Source of the DNA: Crocinitomicaceae bacterium
GTDB taxonomy: Bacteria > Bacteroidota > Bacteroidia > Flavobacteriales_D > Parvicellaceae
NCBI GenBank assembly: GCA_002713405.1
Contig: PAST01000038.1
Location: forward strand, 32,560 to 73,556
Length of the DNA stretch: 40,997 nucleotides
Direction: 5' to 3'
In this document: piece after piece, positions 5,181 through 14,982 of the stretch
How the letters are laid out: each line of letters begins with the position of its first letter
Numbering within the stretch: position 1 is the stretch's first letter
The notes under the pieces: model-generated
Database searches by the model: none
What the model was told of the DNA's origin: nothing
The model's input: only the letters and a program-made list of their open reading frames with translations
Program-made: the position numbers and the translations under genes

Positions 5181-7973
5181 ATGAGAAAAATTAACCTTTT
5201 TATTTTATTCCTATTTTATTTTGGGGGCCTACATAGTCAATTAAAATTAGCCGATATCCTTTTCAACAACTTTGAATACAAAACAGCTGCAAAAATATAC
5301 AGTGAATCTAGTTCTTTATCCCAAAAACAATTAGAAAAATATGCACTCTGCTACTTTTACACCAATGATTTTAAAAAGTCTATACCTATTTTTAAAAAAG
5401 CATTATTAAATAAGCCAAATGACTTTATTCTTAATTATCGTTACGGTACTTCTTTAAAAAATACGGGCAAATATAATAGCGCAAAAAAAATTTTCTCTGA
5501 TTTGCATATTGAAGATTCCTTAAATAAACGTATTGCTCTTGATCTTGAAAGTATTAATTATCTTGAAAAGAAAGATTCCACCAAGGCTTTTAAAAAGTTA
5601 GCCAACTTTGACAAAATAAACTCTCCATCTTCTGAATTTGCACCATCTTTTTTTGATGAAGGAATATATTACATTGCCGAGAAAGGAAATAAAAAAGCAA
5701 TAACTAACAATATAAGTTTAGTTTCAAATAACGACTCTTTAACTATAAAAGAGAAAAAAGAATTTACCGAAAAATTAAATTCCTTGCTATCTTTTGGAAA
5801 TACTATCTCTACTAGGACATTCGTAAATAAAGTAGATCTAAATATCCCCATGCTTTTCACAACTTTAAATAACCCTATTCCCGACTCAACAGTTATAAGA
5901 AATGAAGAAATAATTTCACATAAAAGTTTTAATGTAACTAGTTTTAATATTGAAAATTCTAATGATAAAATATTTTACACTAGACACCCATACCTAACAA
6001 ATTCTAATGCTGGTGTATCATTAAATCCTTTAATATATAGGGGGAAAATAGACGCTGAAAAGAAAAAAATTATTTTTAGAAGGCGTATTCCAGTAAGATT
6101 CTTGTCTAGTTCCGCAGGATCTGGAGAAGTTTGTGTAACTGCAGATGGGGAAACAATTTATTTTGTTTCTGACAAGAAAAAAGGTTTTGGACAAACAGAT
6201 ATTTATATGTCTCATAAAACAAAATCCGGAAAATGGGGAAGAGCTATTAATCTTGGACCATTAGTAAATTCGCCTTACAGAGAAGAGTCTCCAAGAATTT
6301 ACGATGATAGTATTCTTTACTTTTCTTCAAACGGATTTCCTGGATATGGGGGAGCAGATATATTTAAATGTAAAATTATTAAAGACAGCATATATGATGT
6401 TAAACACTTGCCTTATCCTATTAATTCTAATGGAGACGATATTCATTTTGTCCTACATCCATTTGACGAAAGTATTGCAATACTGAATTCTAATAGATCT
6501 ACAGGCAAAGGAGAGGAAGATATTTATTTTGCACATATGGTTCCTATTTCACCTTATGTAAAAGGATATGTTAGATTAAATAGCGACAGTAGCCTTCAAA
6601 AAAACACTACTGTTAGACTTTTAAACCAAGATAATGAAGAAATAAAACAGATTCAAACTGGAGCTTCTGGGAAATATAGGTTTAGTCTCAAAAAAAACAG
6701 ACTTTATAAGGTAGTTGCTACTAAGAAAAATTTTTATGGAGATACACTTGTAATTTCTGATTCAACTCTCTTTAGGCATGAAAGAAGAGATATAACTTTA
6801 AAAGGAGATAAAACAATTCAAGGCTATACAGTAAAAAGAAGTAATAATGAAAGAGTACCAAATGTTAAAATAGAAATTAATACAGGAATTAGATCTAAAA
6901 AATTATCCATTTATTCTGATGAGAATGGTTTCTACCAGTTTGCTTTTAACAAAGATTCAATGTTATTATTAGAGGGGTTGAGTGATAGTTTGTGGGGTTC
7001 TAAAGAGTTTTTTATAGATTCTAATTATTTATTTAAAAAACAACACAACTTAAAACTTGATCCACTTTACAAAGAATTCAAGGTCAAAGTCCTAGATCAA
7101 GAAACTAAAGAAATTCAGGCTGATGCTATTGTTTATTTAATAAATATAGATGGAAATAAAATTGATTCTTCACTTACTGATTCTACTGGACATGTATACT
7201 TCAATTTGAAAACAGCAGAAGATTACGAGATGCATGCATTTAAAGGGAAAGCAGATGGTGTAGCTAATATTCATACTAGTCTATTAGCAAAAAACACTAA
7301 AGATATCGACTTATATATCACAACTAACTATATATCTACTATTGGTAAAATTATTGACACTGACACTAAAAAATCTTTAGATTTAGTGAAAATCACCATT
7401 GTAGATTCAACTACTAATTTTAAAGATTTAAGCTACACCAATGATTCTGGAAGTTTTGAATTACACGTTCATGAAAATAATATTTACTACTTAATTATTG
7501 AAAAAAGCAATTATTTCACCAAGACTTTAATTCTAAACATTGGAGATTCTGTTCCTAATGTTATTGACTTAAATATGAAATATAATCTAAGTTTAAAAAA
7601 ATCAGGGTTTCTAATTGAACCTATTTATTTTGACTTTAAAAGTCATAAAATTACAAAAGAGTCAAAATTGGAATTAGACAAATTAGCCTCATTTTTAAAA
7701 AATAATAGAACTGAGTCAATTACAATATTTGGCTACACAGATTGCCAAGGGACTAAAGAGTACTTATCAAAAAACTATAATAAAATTCTAGGGAAAAATA
7801 GAGGGATTTCTGTAAGAAGATATTTACATGCAAAAGGGATTCCAAATTCAAGAGTTACAGTAATCGGAAGAGGAAGTGTAAACTTTCTGAATTCTTGTTT
7901 TACGTCTGAAAGTTGTACAGATCAAGAACATAGAGAAAATAGAAGGTGTGAATTTCAGTTAAATGATCAATAG
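5181..7973 (+). CDS. PorE-like OmpA-family protein with TPR, PD40 beta-propeller and carboxypeptidase-regulatory-like domains
   Basis: A 930-residue exported protein. After a signal peptide (1-20) come TPR-like helices (about 25-130). PD40-type propeller repeats follow, with VTADGETIYFVSDK near residue 318 and SILYFSSNGFPGYGGADI near 377. Several carboxypeptidase-regulatory-like beta domains follow (about 465-790). The C-terminal OmpA peptidoglycan-binding domain (about 805-930) contains IFGYTDCQG, the NYNKILGKNRGISVRRYL helix and ENRRCEF. This order matches PorE/PD40-OmpA proteins, which in the T9SS anchor the PorK/N ring to peptidoglycan. Together with the preceding cargo and PorP/SprF genes it forms a compact secretion/anchoring operon. 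It could instead be a paralogue specific to this cargo rather than the core PorE. Confidence 0.85.
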   Translation: MRKINLFILFLFYFGGLHSQLKLADILFNNFEYKTAAKIYSESSSLSQKQLEKYALCYFYTNDFKKSIPIFKKALLNKPNDFILNYRYGTSLKNTGKYNSAKKIFSDLHIEDSLNKRIALDLESINYLEKKDSTKAFKKLANFDKINSPSSEFAPSFFDEGIYYIAEKGNKKAITNNISLVSNNDSLTIKEKKEFTEKLNSLLSFGNTISTRTFVNKVDLNIPMLFTTLNNPIPDSTVIRNEEIISHKSFNVTSFNIENSNDKIFYTRHPYLTNSNAGVSLNPLIYRGKIDAEKKKIIFRRRIPVRFLSSSAGSGEVCVTADGETIYFVSDKKKGFGQTDIYMSHKTKSGKWGRAINLGPLVNSPYREESPRIYDDSILYFSSNGFPGYGGADIFKCKIIKDSIYDVKHLPYPINSNGDDIHFVLHPFDESIAILNSNRSTGKGEEDIYFAHMVPISPYVKGYVRLNSDSSLQKNTTVRLLNQDNEEIKQIQTGASGKYRFSLKKNRLYKVVATKKNFYGDTLVISDSTLFRHERRDITLKGDKTIQGYTVKRSNNERVPNVKIEINTGIRSKKLSIYSDENGFYQFAFNKDSMLLLEGLSDSLWGSKEFFIDSNYLFKKQHNLKLDPLYKEFKVKVLDQETKEIQADAIVYLINIDGNKIDSSLTDSTGHVYFNLKTAEDYEMHAFKGKADGVANIHTSLLAKNTKDIDLYITTNYISTIGKIIDTDTKKSLDLVKITIVDSTTNFKDLSYTNDSGSFELHVHENNIYYLIIEKSNYFTKTLILNIGDSVPNVIDLNMKYNLSLKKSGFLIEPIYFDFKSHKITKESKLELDKLASFLKNNRTESITIFGYTDCQGTKEYLSKNYNKILGKNRGISVRRYLHAKGIPNSRVTVIGRGSVNFLNSCFTSESCTDQEHRENRRCEFQLNDQ

Positions 7974-10000: not shown

Positions 10001-10071
10001 GGTCTCGTGGCCGAGTGGCTAGGCAGTGGTCTGCAAAACCATCTACATCGGTTCGAATCCGATCGAGACCT
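10001..10071 (+). tRNA. tRNA-Cys (GCA)
   Basis: Cloverleaf of 71 bases. The acceptor stem GGTCTCG pairs with CGAGACC at 10064-10070, followed by discriminator T, the expected U73 identity base of tRNA-Cys. The anticodon loop CTGCAAA reads GCA, and the T-arm contains GGTTCGAATCC. CCA is not encoded. Confidence 0.95.
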
Positions 10072-10195
10072 CTTCTTTTAAAACTTATCTAATTAAACTA
10101 GATTCACAATATGTCATGTAACATAATGGCATTTAGAAATATTTTATATTTTAGACATATTACACTTTAAAAAGAAGTTTTAATTTACATTTTTT

Positions 10196-10873
10196 TTGAA
10201 AAGAACAATCATAAAAAGATTCTTTTGGATTCTAGTCTTTAATCCACTTTATTTGATTTCTCAATATCAAATATGTTTTAATCATAAATTTCAAAATAAT
10301 GAATTGATAATTAACGAAGAAAAAATAATTCGTGATGATACTATTAGTATTTCTTCACTGAATTATTATATTTCAATGATAAGATTGCATAACAACTCAA
10401 AAATAGTTTATGTTGATAATCAATTAGGTCATTTAATTTCACATGAAAATCACCAAAGTTCTTGCATAGTTTTAGATTGTAAAAAAATAAAATTCAATTC
10501 AATTCATTTTAAATTAGGAATTGATAGTATAACTCATAATAAAGGTGTCTTAGGAGAAGATTTAGATCCTTCAAAAGGAATGTACTGGACATGGAGAAGT
10601 GGATATATTAATCTAAAAGTTGAAGGATTTTCTTCAATGTGTGCAGCTAAAAATCATTTTTTTCAATTTCATATTGGTGGATATCAACATCCGAATAATA
10701 CATCACACAATATAGATTTACAAACAAAAAAAAACTCAACAATTAATATTTCTTTTGACTTGTTTAAACTTATGAATAAAATTGATCTTTCTAAAACATT
10801 TCAAGTAATGAGTCCAAGTAAAACAGCTGTTGAAATATCAAATTATTGGAAAAATTCATTTTATATAGAATGA
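10196..10873 (+). CDS. MbnP-like copper-binding family periplasmic protein
   Basis: A 225-residue exported protein with signal peptide about 1-22. The MbnP family core is recognised by DLDPSKGMYWTWRSGYINLKVEG (about residues 122-144), preceded by the beta-strand segment FNSIHFKLGID and followed by FQFHIGG. MbnP is known from methanobactin operons, where a partner di-heme enzyme (MbnH) oxidises a Trp to kynurenine to build a copper site. Here W131 and W133 are candidate targets. No ATG suits the start, and TTG at 10196 gives a proper signal peptide. The stop overlaps the next start in an ATGA, so the two genes are translationally coupled. Copper binding is inferred from family and context. Confidence 0.82.
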   Translation: MKRTIIKRFFWILVFNPLYLISQYQICFNHKFQNNELIINEEKIIRDDTISISSLNYYISMIRLHNNSKIVYVDNQLGHLISHENHQSSCIVLDCKKIKFNSIHFKLGIDSITHNKGVLGEDLDPSKGMYWTWRSGYINLKVEGFSSMCAAKNHFFQFHIGGYQHPNNTSHNIDLQTKKNSTINISFDLFKLMNKIDLSKTFQVMSPSKTAVEISNYWKNSFYIE

Positions 10874-11898
10874 AAAAAAAAAATCTTCAACTTATATTGG
10901 TTCTAATTTTATTTTCTGGTTTTAATTTAAAAAAAATCAAATATTTTACATACCCTAAATACTTTCCAAAGCCAGTTTATAATTTTAAAAATAATTTTTT
11001 AGATAGCAATAAAATAAAATTAGGTAGATTTTTGTTTTATGACCCAATTTTATCATCTAACAATACTATTTCTTGTGCATCTTGCCATTCTCCTTATAAT
11101 GCTTTTTCACATTCTGACCATGCATTGAGTCATGGAATTAATGATCAAATAGGAACTAGAAATGCTCCTGCTCTATTTAATCTTGCATGGCAAAAAGATT
11201 TTATGTGGGATGGTGCTGTTAAGCATCTTGATTTCCAACCACTTTCTCCTATTTCACATCCGAAAGAGATGAATGAAAATTTTAAAAACATTATACTAAA
11301 ACTTTCTAAATCTAAATTTTATAAAAAATGGTATTTTAAATCCTTTGGGGATAGTATTATTAGTGGTGAAAGGACACTAAAAGCATTGTCTCAATTTCAA
11401 ATTACATTAGTTTCAACCAACTCAAAATATGACAGAGTCAAAAAGGGAAATGAAATATTTAATTTAAAAGAAAAAAAAGGCTATGAAATATTTTTAAAAA
11501 AATGCAATAGCTGTCACAGAGAACCACTTTTCTCTAATTATCAATTTTCTAAAAATGGACTACCAATTGACAAAACGTTAAATGACTACGGGAGAGTTGT
11601 TATTACAAAAAATCCTGAGGATAGTTTATCATTTAAAATTCCTTCCCTGAGAAATTTAAGTTATTCTTCTCCTTACATGCACGATGGAAGATTTAAAACT
11701 TTACACGAAGTAATTAATCACTATAATTTTGATTTATATAAAAATAGAAATATTTCACCTGAACTTATGAGTTTTATTCCACTAAATAACAAGGAAACTG
11801 TTGATTTAATAAGCTTTCTTAAAACATTAAATGATTCATCTTTTATTTATAATACCAAAAGCAAATTTCCTAAGGAATTAATTTTGAATTTAAAGTAA
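10870..11898 (+). CDS. Di-heme cytochrome c peroxidase / MbnH-MauG family protein
   Basis: A 342-residue exported di-heme enzyme. Two c-type heme motifs are seen, CASCH (69-73) and CNSCH (212-216), with the family segments LGRFLFYDP, GTRNAPALFN, MWDGAVKHL and the C-terminal SPYMHDGRFKTLHEV that holds candidate axial ligands (M270, H271). ATG at 10870 is chosen over one at 10846. It forms an ATGA overlap with the MbnP-like gene and gives a clean N-terminal hydrophobic anchor (NLQLILVLILFSGF). By analogy to MbnP/MbnH, it probably modifies its neighbour (inference). A plain hydrogen-peroxide-reducing cytochrome c peroxidase is the alternative. Confidence 0.88.
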   Translation: MKKKNLQLILVLILFSGFNLKKIKYFTYPKYFPKPVYNFKNNFLDSNKIKLGRFLFYDPILSSNNTISCASCHSPYNAFSHSDHALSHGINDQIGTRNAPALFNLAWQKDFMWDGAVKHLDFQPLSPISHPKEMNENFKNIILKLSKSKFYKKWYFKSFGDSIISGERTLKALSQFQITLVSTNSKYDRVKKGNEIFNLKEKKGYEIFLKKCNSCHREPLFSNYQFSKNGLPIDKTLNDYGRVVITKNPEDSLSFKIPSLRNLSYSSPYMHDGRFKTLHEVINHYNFDLYKNRNISPELMSFIPLNNKETVDLISFLKTLNDSSFIYNTKSKFPKELILNLK

Positions 11899-11948
11899 TT
11901 ATTTTAACTTTAAAGAGATAAAATTCAATCTTCAATTAAAAAATCAAC

Positions 11949-13313
11949 ATGTTTACAAAAAACTTTATCTTTCTATTATTTATCTCTTTGACGTCGAATT
12001 TGTTTTCTCAAAGTCCAGCAATTACTTCTTGGTTGCAAAATACAACTTTAACAGGCACTTATTATAATTCTGGGAGTTCAACCGCAATTGGAAATGGAGA
12101 ATTAGTTAATTGTCAAAAAGTAGAATACTCAAATGATTATGTTTATGTTACTGCGACTGGAATACCTTCTTTTACAACTGGTCCTTTCCTTGACGGAAAT
12201 CCCTCTCAAGCTCAAAATCAAAATGCTATTTATAAATTCCCATTAAATCCCCAGCCAAATACTGGAGTTCCTACTAATACGACTATGGGGACAATAGGCG
12301 TTTTTATAAATGGAACATCACTATTTAATTATGCAGATGGAGTAGCTTGGGATAATAATACAAATGCTCTTTGTGGTGGCCCAGGAAATTCTCCCTGTAC
12401 AGGGAATACGGAATGGAATAGAGATGCTATTCCAGCTGAAATGGCAGGTTTTGACTGTTCTAAAGGGCATCCAGCTAATGGAAATTATCATCATCACCAA
12501 AACCCATCAGCATTTAAATTAGATTTAAATGTAGTTTCAACAATTTGTAATTTATATGATGCTGACGGTCTTTACCTTATTGACAGTACTCAACATTCTC
12601 CATTAATCGGATATGCATATGATGGATATCCCATATATGGAGCTTATGGATATAAAAACTCTGATGGATCAGGTGGCATAGCAAGAATAAAATCAAGTTA
12701 TCAATTAAAAAATATTACTACAAGACCAAATGGCCCTGATGTAGATCATGTCATTACAACAACTGGTCCAAACGGAGGCCAGCAGACTTTATTTTTAGGA
12801 TATTTTAAGGAAGATTACGAATATATAGTAAGTAATGATGAAGACTATCTGGACGAACACAACGGAAGAATATGTGTAACTCCTGAATACCCTAATGGTA
12901 CATATGCTTATTTTGCAACTGTTGATGAAAATTGGAATTCTGCTTATCCATACGCTGTAAATACTTTTTATGGTGTTTATTCTAATGCTTTGGTAAATAG
13001 TGTAAGTGAGCCTACTACAATTTATACTTCAACTGTAAGTAATGAATTAATAGATATAAATAAGTTAAATATTAATGTTTTCCCAAATCCATCAACAGAC
13101 TTAATTGCTATTCAAATTGGTCAATTAAGTAAAATTAACTATAACATCGAATTAACTAATTCAGATGGAAAACTAATTGAGAAAAAACAAATAAACGCAG
13201 GAAGTACAATAGCTTATTTTAATACAGAAACTCTATATAATGGAATTTATTTGATAAAAATTTCTCATCTCAACGGAGAATCTGTAATAAAAAAAGTGGT
13301 TATTAATAGATAA
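11949..13313 (+). CDS. YHYH domain-containing protein with type A T9SS sorting domain
   Basis: A 454-residue secreted protein with signal peptide 1-20. The YHYH domain is recognised by GHPANGNYHHHQNP (YHHH at 180-183, one change from the YHYH signature), a preceding FDC, and GYAYDGYPIYGAYGY further on. The histidine cluster suggests metal binding, but the family has no proven biochemical role. The last 80 or so residues, beginning NVFPNPSTDLIAIQI and ending VIKKVVINR, are a type A C-terminal sorting domain, so the protein should cross the outer membrane through the T9SS and be surface-attached or released. It lies 50 bases after the MbnH-like gene and 31 before the copper monooxygenase-like gene, which points to a shared copper-related function (inference). 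Confidence 0.85.
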   Translation: MFTKNFIFLLFISLTSNLFSQSPAITSWLQNTTLTGTYYNSGSSTAIGNGELVNCQKVEYSNDYVYVTATGIPSFTTGPFLDGNPSQAQNQNAIYKFPLNPQPNTGVPTNTTMGTIGVFINGTSLFNYADGVAWDNNTNALCGGPGNSPCTGNTEWNRDAIPAEMAGFDCSKGHPANGNYHHHQNPSAFKLDLNVVSTICNLYDADGLYLIDSTQHSPLIGYAYDGYPIYGAYGYKNSDGSGGIARIKSSYQLKNITTRPNGPDVDHVITTTGPNGGQQTLFLGYFKEDYEYIVSNDEDYLDEHNGRICVTPEYPNGTYAYFATVDENWNSAYPYAVNTFYGVYSNALVNSVSEPTTIYTSTVSNELIDINKLNINVFPNPSTDLIAIQIGQLSKINYNIELTNSDGKLIEKKQINAGSTIAYFNTETLYNGIYLIKISHLNGESVIKKVVINR

Positions 13314-13344
13314 CTTTCTTTAAATTAAGCTATATCTATTTTAT

Positions 13345-14982
13345 TTGGAAAAACAAAATGTTAAATTGCAAACTCCAAAATATAATTTTTACATTATTAG
13401 AAATTTTTTTTCATCCATAGTTTTATTACTATTTTGCTGCTCATTTATTTTGGAAAATGACACCAGATCTAATAGAGCAATAACTTTTAGTGAGCATATT
13501 GCTCCAATTTTTTATAGCAACTGTACAGGTTGCCACCATAGTGGTGGAGTAGGTCCATTTTCATTAATTGATTTTCAAAGTGCCTATAATAATAGAAATG
13601 CCATTCAAGGATCTGTTTTAAGTGGATATATGCCTCCTTGGCCACCAGATACCAACTATTCTAATTTTAGACACGAGAGAATATTATCCAATCAGGAAAT
13701 TAATTTAATTAATACCTGGGTAGGACTTGGAGCTCCTGAAGGAAATTCTAATTTAACACCAACAGCTCCAAATTACAATATAAGTGGGCCTCAATTAGGA
13801 ATGCCAGATCTAACTTTATCGGCACCTATTTACTCAAGTAATGCCTTTCAAAACGATGATTATGTTTGCTTTACTATTCCAAGTAATTTATTAACAGATA
13901 AGAAGATCAGAGCGGTAGAGGTTGTTCCTGGAAACTTAGCTATTGTACATCATTGTTTAGTTTATATTGATCCTTCTGGAAATTCTTCTGTAGGAATTCA
14001 AAATAACTGTATGGGACCTACTAATGGGAATTTAGTTGGAGAATTTGCACCTGGTTCTTTACCTATTGCTTATCCTGGAGATGATAATATGGCATTTGGG
14101 ATGAGTTTTCCTGCAAATAGTAATGTAATATTGGCAATGCATTATCCTGTCGGGTCATTAGGAATGATGGACAGTACAAAAGTTCACTTTTATTTTTATC
14201 CAGATCAAGTAAATCAATTTAGAGAAATTGAAATTAATCCAATTATACAAAATCTTAGTTTTTGTGTTCCTCCAAATCAGACAAAAACTGTAAATGACTC
14301 TTACCAAATTCCAAATTCTTCACCAGTGTTATCTCTTTTTGGTGTATTCCCTCACATGCATTTAATTGGTAAATCTATTGAAACTTACGGTCTAAACTCA
14401 AATGGCGACACAAGTAAATTTATAAGGGTTCCTAACTGGGATTTTGAATGGCAAGGAGCTTATCATTTTAGAAAAATGCCAAAACTTGATCCTGGAAGTA
14501 CTATAAAGGCTTCCGCATTTTATGACAACACATCAGCAAATTTACACAATCCAAACACTCCTCCTCAGACTATTTGTGGTGGTTTAAACACAACTGATGA
14601 AATGTTTGTAATCTACTATCTATTTACAGAGTACATGAGTGGTGATGAGAGTCTAGACTTGGACTCCTTAAGTCAAAATGGGATGACTAATATTGAAAAT
14701 AATTATTTATACAATAATCCAATAAAAATATTTCCAAATCCGGTTGAAAAGAAGTTTACTGTAGAATCTAATTGGCAAAAAAGAGAGATCGATAAAATTG
14801 AATTTTATAATCTTGGTGGAAATTTGATTTATTCAGAAAAAATTAATGACTTAACAAATCTTCACTTTAAAAAAAATTATGATAAAAGTAAAATCTTTAC
14901 CAGCTCATCTAATAAAGTTGGTTTAATTAGGATTTACCATAAAAATGGAGATGTTCAGTACGGTAAAGTTATAGCCAAATAA
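13345..14982 (+). CDS. Cytochrome c - copper type II (PHM/DBH-like) monooxygenase fusion with type A T9SS tail
   Basis: A 545-residue exported protein in three parts. Residues 45-130 are a single c-type heme domain (CTGCH at 60-64, probable axial Met in GYMPPWPPD). Residues 150-430 carry the ligand set of peptidylglycine/dopamine monooxygenases: H202-H203 (VHHCLVYID), H266 (AMHYPVG), H337 and H339 (FPHMHLIG) and M420 (TTDEMFVIYYLF). Their spacing resembles that of dopamine beta-hydroxylase. The C-terminus from about 455 (IKIFPNPVEKKF) is a type A T9SS sorting domain. The start is uncertain. No ATG is in frame, and TTG at 13345 gives an N-terminal signal sequence with some extra residues. The substrate is unknown, and the heme may supply electrons to copper (inference). 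Confidence 0.8.
   Translation: MEKQNVKLQTPKYNFYIIRNFFSSIVLLLFCCSFILENDTRSNRAITFSEHIAPIFYSNCTGCHHSGGVGPFSLIDFQSAYNNRNAIQGSVLSGYMPPWPPDTNYSNFRHERILSNQEINLINTWVGLGAPEGNSNLTPTAPNYNISGPQLGMPDLTLSAPIYSSNAFQNDDYVCFTIPSNLLTDKKIRAVEVVPGNLAIVHHCLVYIDPSGNSSVGIQNNCMGPTNGNLVGEFAPGSLPIAYPGDDNMAFGMSFPANSNVILAMHYPVGSLGMMDSTKVHFYFYPDQVNQFREIEINPIIQNLSFCVPPNQTKTVNDSYQIPNSSPVLSLFGVFPHMHLIGKSIETYGLNSNGDTSKFIRVPNWDFEWQGAYHFRKMPKLDPGSTIKASAFYDNTSANLHNPNTPPQTICGGLNTTDEMFVIYYLFTEYMSGDESLDLDSLSQNGMTNIENNYLYNNPIKIFPNPVEKKFTVESNWQKREIDKIEFYNLGGNLIYSEKINDLTNLHFKKNYDKSKIFTSSSNKVGLIRIYHKNGDVQYGKVIAK

Follow-up and report, generated by a model that had tools for sequence, protein, structure and literature searches.

Four genes in a row on one strand of a Crocinitomicaceae genome raise the question of which of them belong together and what they do. 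They lie at 10196-10873, 10870-11898, 11949-13313 and 13345-14982 of the window, by which is meant the whole stretch of 40,997 nucleotides that was analysed, and encode an MbnP-like protein, a di-heme protein of the MbnH type, a protein with a YHYH domain and a copper monooxygenase. The four open reading frames of the first-pass annotation were confirmed, including the ATGA at which the MbnH start codon (ATG at 10870) overlaps the MbnP stop codon TGA, and its four gene assignments are backed by Pfam and NCBIfam profile matches. MbnP, MbnH and YHYH, here called the triad, are probably a copper-handling unit found across Bacteroidota, whilst the monooxygenase is an older resident beside which the triad landed by insertion. 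No link of the locus to a defence system was found. The features are as follows.

10001..10072, + strand: tRNA-Cys (gca), left flank of the insertion site; adjoins folB in eight relatives too
10122..13380, no strand: inserted segment of about 3.26 kb holding the triad only; left edge 10105-10121, right edge about 13381
10196..10873, + strand: MbnP, 225 aa, signal peptide by eye; PF20243; predicted fold matches 7l6g MbnP only
10586..10594, + strand: WxW motif W131-T-W133 of MbnP, W131 the predicted kynurenine site; both Trp invariant in 53 sequences
10670..10672, + strand: His159 of MbnP, predicted copper ligand; invariant in 53 sequences
10808..10810, + strand: Met205 of MbnP, candidate copper ligand; at least 90% conserved in 53 sequences
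10870..11898, + strand: MbnH, 342 aa, di-heme MauG-type enzyme; PF03150, best PDB match of its profile 6e1c
11074..11088, + strand: MbnH heme site 1, C69-x-x-C72-H73; invariant in 35 sequences
11503..11517, + strand: MbnH heme site 2, C212-x-x-C215-H216; invariant in 35 sequences
11722..11724, + strand: MbnH Tyr285, predicted axial heme ligand; invariant, Tyr in 6e1c and Met in 1iqc/3o5c
11949..13313, + strand: YHYH protein, 454 aa; PF14240, E=1e-55
12468..12497, + strand: predicted metal site of YHYH, H174 and the YHHH motif Y180-H183, joined by H216 at 12594-12596
13077..13304, + strand: YHYH T9SS type A C-terminal sorting domain; PF18962/TIGR04183, over cut-off
13345..14982, + strand: cytochrome c and Cu type II monooxygenase; resident neighbour, outside the module

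The three proteins of the triad

MbnP matches PF20243 with E=1e-37 and 130 bits against a curated cut-off of 27, and scores 28.3 bits against the cut-off of 140 for the NCBIfam equivalog TIGR04052, it is a member of the wider Pfam family and not of that equivalog. Searches of PDB sequences with the single protein or its profile gave no match, and the relationship to known structures is seen by fold search only. The AF2 model (pLDDT 91.5) has Methylosinus MbnP 7l6g as its best Foldseek match (probability 1.00, E 1.5e-7), with all six matches at E<=0.001 being 7l6g chains. W131, W133 and H159 are invariant and M205 is kept in at least 90% of the 53 sequences. Methylosinus MbnP is said to bind one Cu(I) through His and Met ligands once the first Trp of its WxW motif has become kynurenine, and following that example we take W131, the first Trp of the motif here, to be the kynurenine site. 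The same genome holds a second, stand-alone MbnP/MbnH pair on another contig (C5, L003 9865-10692 and 8801-9859), in whose MbnP the first Trp is kept and Met replaces the second (HWQM).

MbnH carries a CCP_MauG domain (PF03150, E=3e-51) and a second heme domain. Its best NCBIfam match is TIGR04039, at 181.5 bits below the cut-off of 362.85. Both CXXCH sites and Tyr285 are invariant, and Tyr285 aligns with the Tyr of 6e1c and with the Met of the peroxidases 1iqc and 3o5c, the alignment predicting a heme coordination in which Tyr replaces the axial Met of the peroxidases. The MbnH proteins of triads form one clade against stand-alone MbnH, with support of 100/99, and the profile scores of triad pairs and stand-alone MbnP/MbnH pairs do not overlap. 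That such a pair occurs here without methanobactin agrees with a search of the genome, in which no gene of the MbnB family (PF05114) was found and matches were obtained in control genomes, therefore a methanobactin context is not supported.

Conservation is highest in YHYH, with a mean column identity of 69%, compared to 55% for MbnH and 35% for MbnP. All 116 triad-type proteins share H174, H181, H183 and H216, of which the first three recur in the 16 distant YHYH proteins as well (16/16). The model of YHYH has a pLDDT of 55 and is too poor for use. The protein carries a T9SS tail (PF18962), and the genome encodes the T9SS component SprA. Elsewhere in the window, at 5181-7973, is a large OmpA/PD40 protein related to the PorE/CHU_0125 families, below their cut-offs.

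Most distant YHYH proteins lie among other genes. In one neighbourhood that recurs without MbnP and MbnH, a distant YHYH precedes a protein of some 500-560 aa that looks secreted (L118, L128, L137, L140, L144, L116, L145, L110), and two short YHYH genes (L111 and L112, of genomes G050 and G108) adjoin desaturase-like genes that are CrtI-like by eye. YHYH-like domains also occur in viral contigs (L233-L236) and in phage virion and baseplate families (PHROGs 2885, 4406 and 701), the His motif being absent from all four aligned viral domains. Almost no literature on the YHYH domain was found.

The conservation of YHYH, and its tie to a specific MbnH clade, could be taken to mean that YHYH is itself the second or even the main substrate of MbnH, which would mature it in the periplasm into a surface enzyme that bears a modified residue, with MbnP as an accessory donor of metal. 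In the YHYH of triads W134 and W156 vary little or not at all; in YHYH outside triads W134 is mostly Tyr. However, neither is a clean mark of MbnH, as W134 is Tyr in 4 of the 116 triad-type proteins and W156 is kept where MbnH is missing, and no Trp of YHYH is more invariant than the WxW motif of MbnP. We think this maturation of YHYH unlikely.

Linkage across genomes and regulators of related triads

For 120 sampled genomes of the order, regions around MbnP, YHYH and monooxygenase genes were scanned with profiles; 109 of the genomes have MbnP, 52 have YHYH and about half have a complete monooxygenase. When loci cut by contig ends are left out, MbnH lies directly upstream, on the same strand, of YHYH of the window type at 28 of 31 loci, and at these MbnP precedes MbnH where the contig allows. 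The exceptions (L148, L150, L152) have a triad-type YHYH without MbnP and MbnH. In a second and independent scan 80 loci from named GTDB species were picked by YHYH similarity, so that the linkage is measured for this type of YHYH only; MbnH was present in 74 and MbnP in 71, and the monooxygenase in none within 6 kb. These loci come from Saprospiraceae, Lewinellaceae, Crocinitomicaceae, Flavobacteriaceae, Chitinophagaceae, Sphingobacteriaceae, Ignavibacteria and Kapaibacteria. The co-localisation of MbnP, MbnH and YHYH is far above chance. In their respective trees the MbnH and the YHYH of the window each pair with those of G114, which belongs to another genus of the family, thus the triad genes travel together. 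In three Lewinella relatives (L177, L179, L189) extra open reading frames of 89-385 aa lie between MbnP and MbnH. Of these, L177 is from Neolewinella agarilytica and L179 from N. persica, both culturable, and L179 has the regulators described next as well.

Beside 28 of the 80 triads are an ECF sigma factor, a small anti-sigma-like protein that has a single hydrophobic stretch, and a sensor-like protein of about 150 aa, with a CnrX/Spy-like sensor called beside 36. In the sensors one His is invariant and one Cys nearly so, and 9 of 21 sensors match Metal_resist weakly, whilst the anti-sigma-like proteins match no family. As the module stands behind such a set in many relatives, its normal setting is probably a periplasmic metal response. 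The set is absent beside the triad of the window, and no sensor of this type was found in the host genome. The triads of G114 and G087, its sisters, lack such a sensor as well; the positive controls, from other genomes, gave matches. A very distant YHYH without MbnP and MbnH (L123, 2715-3713) has the sigma, anti-sigma and sensor set directly upstream, which is an independent link between YHYH and this sensor type.

These regulators may also be read in another way, with MbnH as an ordinary cytochrome c peroxidase that scavenges peroxide and the cluster as an operon for oxidative or envelope stress and not for copper. MbnH does fall in the CCP_MauG superfamily, ECF and Spy-like regulators can report envelope stress, and two of the sensors match LTXXQ. 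Set against this are the Tyr that MbnH has in place of the Met ligand of the peroxidases, and its tight pairing with a protein of the MbnP fold that has an invariant WxW and His, making a stress operon of this kind improbable.

The monooxygenase and the inserted segment

The fourth gene encodes a protein with Cu2_monoox_C (PF03712, E=6e-9), a CXXCH domain and a weak T9SS tail. The full copper-monooxygenase ligand set claimed for it (HH, H, HxH and Met) is present and conserved in 14 homologues, as H202 H203, H266/H281, H337 H339 and M420, with heme C60-C63-H64. It had been proposed that a single surface pathway of copper loading unites all four genes, with MbnP feeding this PHM/DBH-like enzyme, and a conserved neighbourhood was to be the test of it. 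MbnP, MbnH and the T9SS-exported YHYH, which are consistently linked, pass that test, and the monooxygenase, absent within 6 kb of all 80 triad loci, fails it.

The surroundings of the gene in relatives lead to the same view. The order gltX-folB-tRNA-Cys-monooxygenase is found in five congeners (G072, G117, G029, G057, G090) and in the related G050 and G108, with a gap of 33-70 bp between the tRNA and the monooxygenase in these seven genomes and the insertion site empty. Homology of the window to the two loci L093/L094 ends at 10121/10104 and restarts at 13395/13381; the flanking homology breaks off and then resumes, therefore about 3.26 kb with the triad alone is extra in the window. The five congeners keep the monooxygenase in the same place while lacking YHYH and the triad; G072 and G117 have no MbnP at all. 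In three other genomes (G114, G087, G010) the triad and the monooxygenase are on separate contigs. In favour of the proposal, the monooxygenase is on the same strand as YHYH and 31 bp off, and it is somewhat commoner in genomes with the triad (22/32 compared to 40/88, Fisher p=0.04, uncorrected for relatedness). The triad may now be co-transcribed with it, yet nothing indicates a shared ancestral function, and a pathway of all four genes is very improbable.

The start of the resident gene differs from that in congeners. The ATG of the monooxygenase in congeners (L093, L094) is ATT at 13396 of the window, some 15 bp from the insert's right edge, so that translation has to begin at another codon, such as the TTG at 13345, or use a rare start codon. 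A spacer duplicated at both ends of the insert (13322 versus the empty site) was considered and dropped as weak, with a shuffle p of 0.04, and base composition is not decisive as a mark of foreign origin, with MbnP and MbnH slightly AT-richer (24-26% GC versus 30%). That the three genes adjoin through chance or an assembly artefact of this genome, as the absence of YHYH from all 8 sampled congeners might suggest, is scarcely credible, with the same gene order in dozens of independent genomes and with synteny to congeners, on one contig, to either side of the insert.

A proposed copper pathway and known systems

The explanation that we favour, at somewhat better than even confidence, is an acquired copper module of MbnP, MbnH and YHYH, with a kynurenine Cu(I) site made by MbnH and with YHYH in the same pathway. 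The module would have been acquired as a unit by this lineage. MbnP and MbnH would be secreted to the periplasm, where MbnH, as a Tyr-ligated di-heme enzyme, may oxidise W131 of MbnP to kynurenine, which, together with His159 and probably Met205, would then make up a Cu(I) site. YHYH, with its invariant cluster of four His, would be exported to the cell surface by the T9SS and there bind or process copper, the simplest role being that of an outer copper-binding partner of MbnP. In this lineage the regulator set is missing and the module fronts an unrelated copper monooxygenase. Copper is assumed to be the metal by homology, and no experiment on any member of the triad was found in the literature.

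Pairs of MbnP and MbnH are already known and reach far beyond methanobactin producers (PMC3621798). The pair of Methylosinus trichosporium (7l6g, 6e1c) is alike in the fold and WxW of MbnP, in the di-heme MauG-type partner with its Tyr and in having adjacent and overlapping genes, but the pair here is from Bacteroidota, has no MbnB-family gene in its genome, is linked to YHYH, scores below the NCBIfam equivalog cut-offs and has Cnr-like regulators in relatives. Kynurenine copper sites have been published for CorA/MopE (PMC3912023), and in the CorA/CorB and MopE/SACCP systems of methanotrophs a di-heme protein also lies beside a protein with a kynurenine-Trp copper site, and the copper protein is surface-exposed. 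However, CorA and MopE are themselves surface-located and are copper-repressed, whereas here the extra surface protein is the separate YHYH product and the type of regulator in relatives of the triad suggests metal induction. According to a passage of a further report (PMC9426467), genes like MbnP and MbnH sit outside methanobactin operons in the copper operons of other bacteria, with OprC, ScoC, PcuAC and CopC and a part in copper homeostasis, and that passage names no YHYH partner.

The regulators resemble CnrYXH of Cupriavidus metallidurans, which also combines an ECF sigma factor, a small anti-sigma and a periplasmic sensor (as at 28-36 of the 80 triad loci), and of which the anti-sigma CnrY is recognised as a separate class (PMC7406223). 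They differ in that the anti-sigmas of the relatives match no family and their sensors match Metal_resist weakly, as well as in their absence beside the triad of the window. New in this analysis are the link to YHYH and the Cnr-like regulation. In the literature searched, to which the 2021 survey of MbnP neighbourhoods does not belong, no paper was found that connects YHYH with MbnP and MbnH, so that priority for the YHYH link is not claimed.

A wider possibility, which we hold to be doubtful, is that PF14240 YHYH proteins of this type are new surface copper proteins or enzymes of Bacteroidota, loaded or matured by a dedicated MbnP/MbnH pair with a kynurenine-copper site and induced through a Cnr-like sigma, anti-sigma and metal sensor. 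Through a constant third partner that carries a T9SS signal and has an invariant His cluster, and through regulators that are metal-sensor-like, the widespread MbnP/MbnH pairs gain a context that is testable. For a large phylum this would mean a pathway for copper at the cell surface, and it may provide the first functional lead for the YHYH domain.
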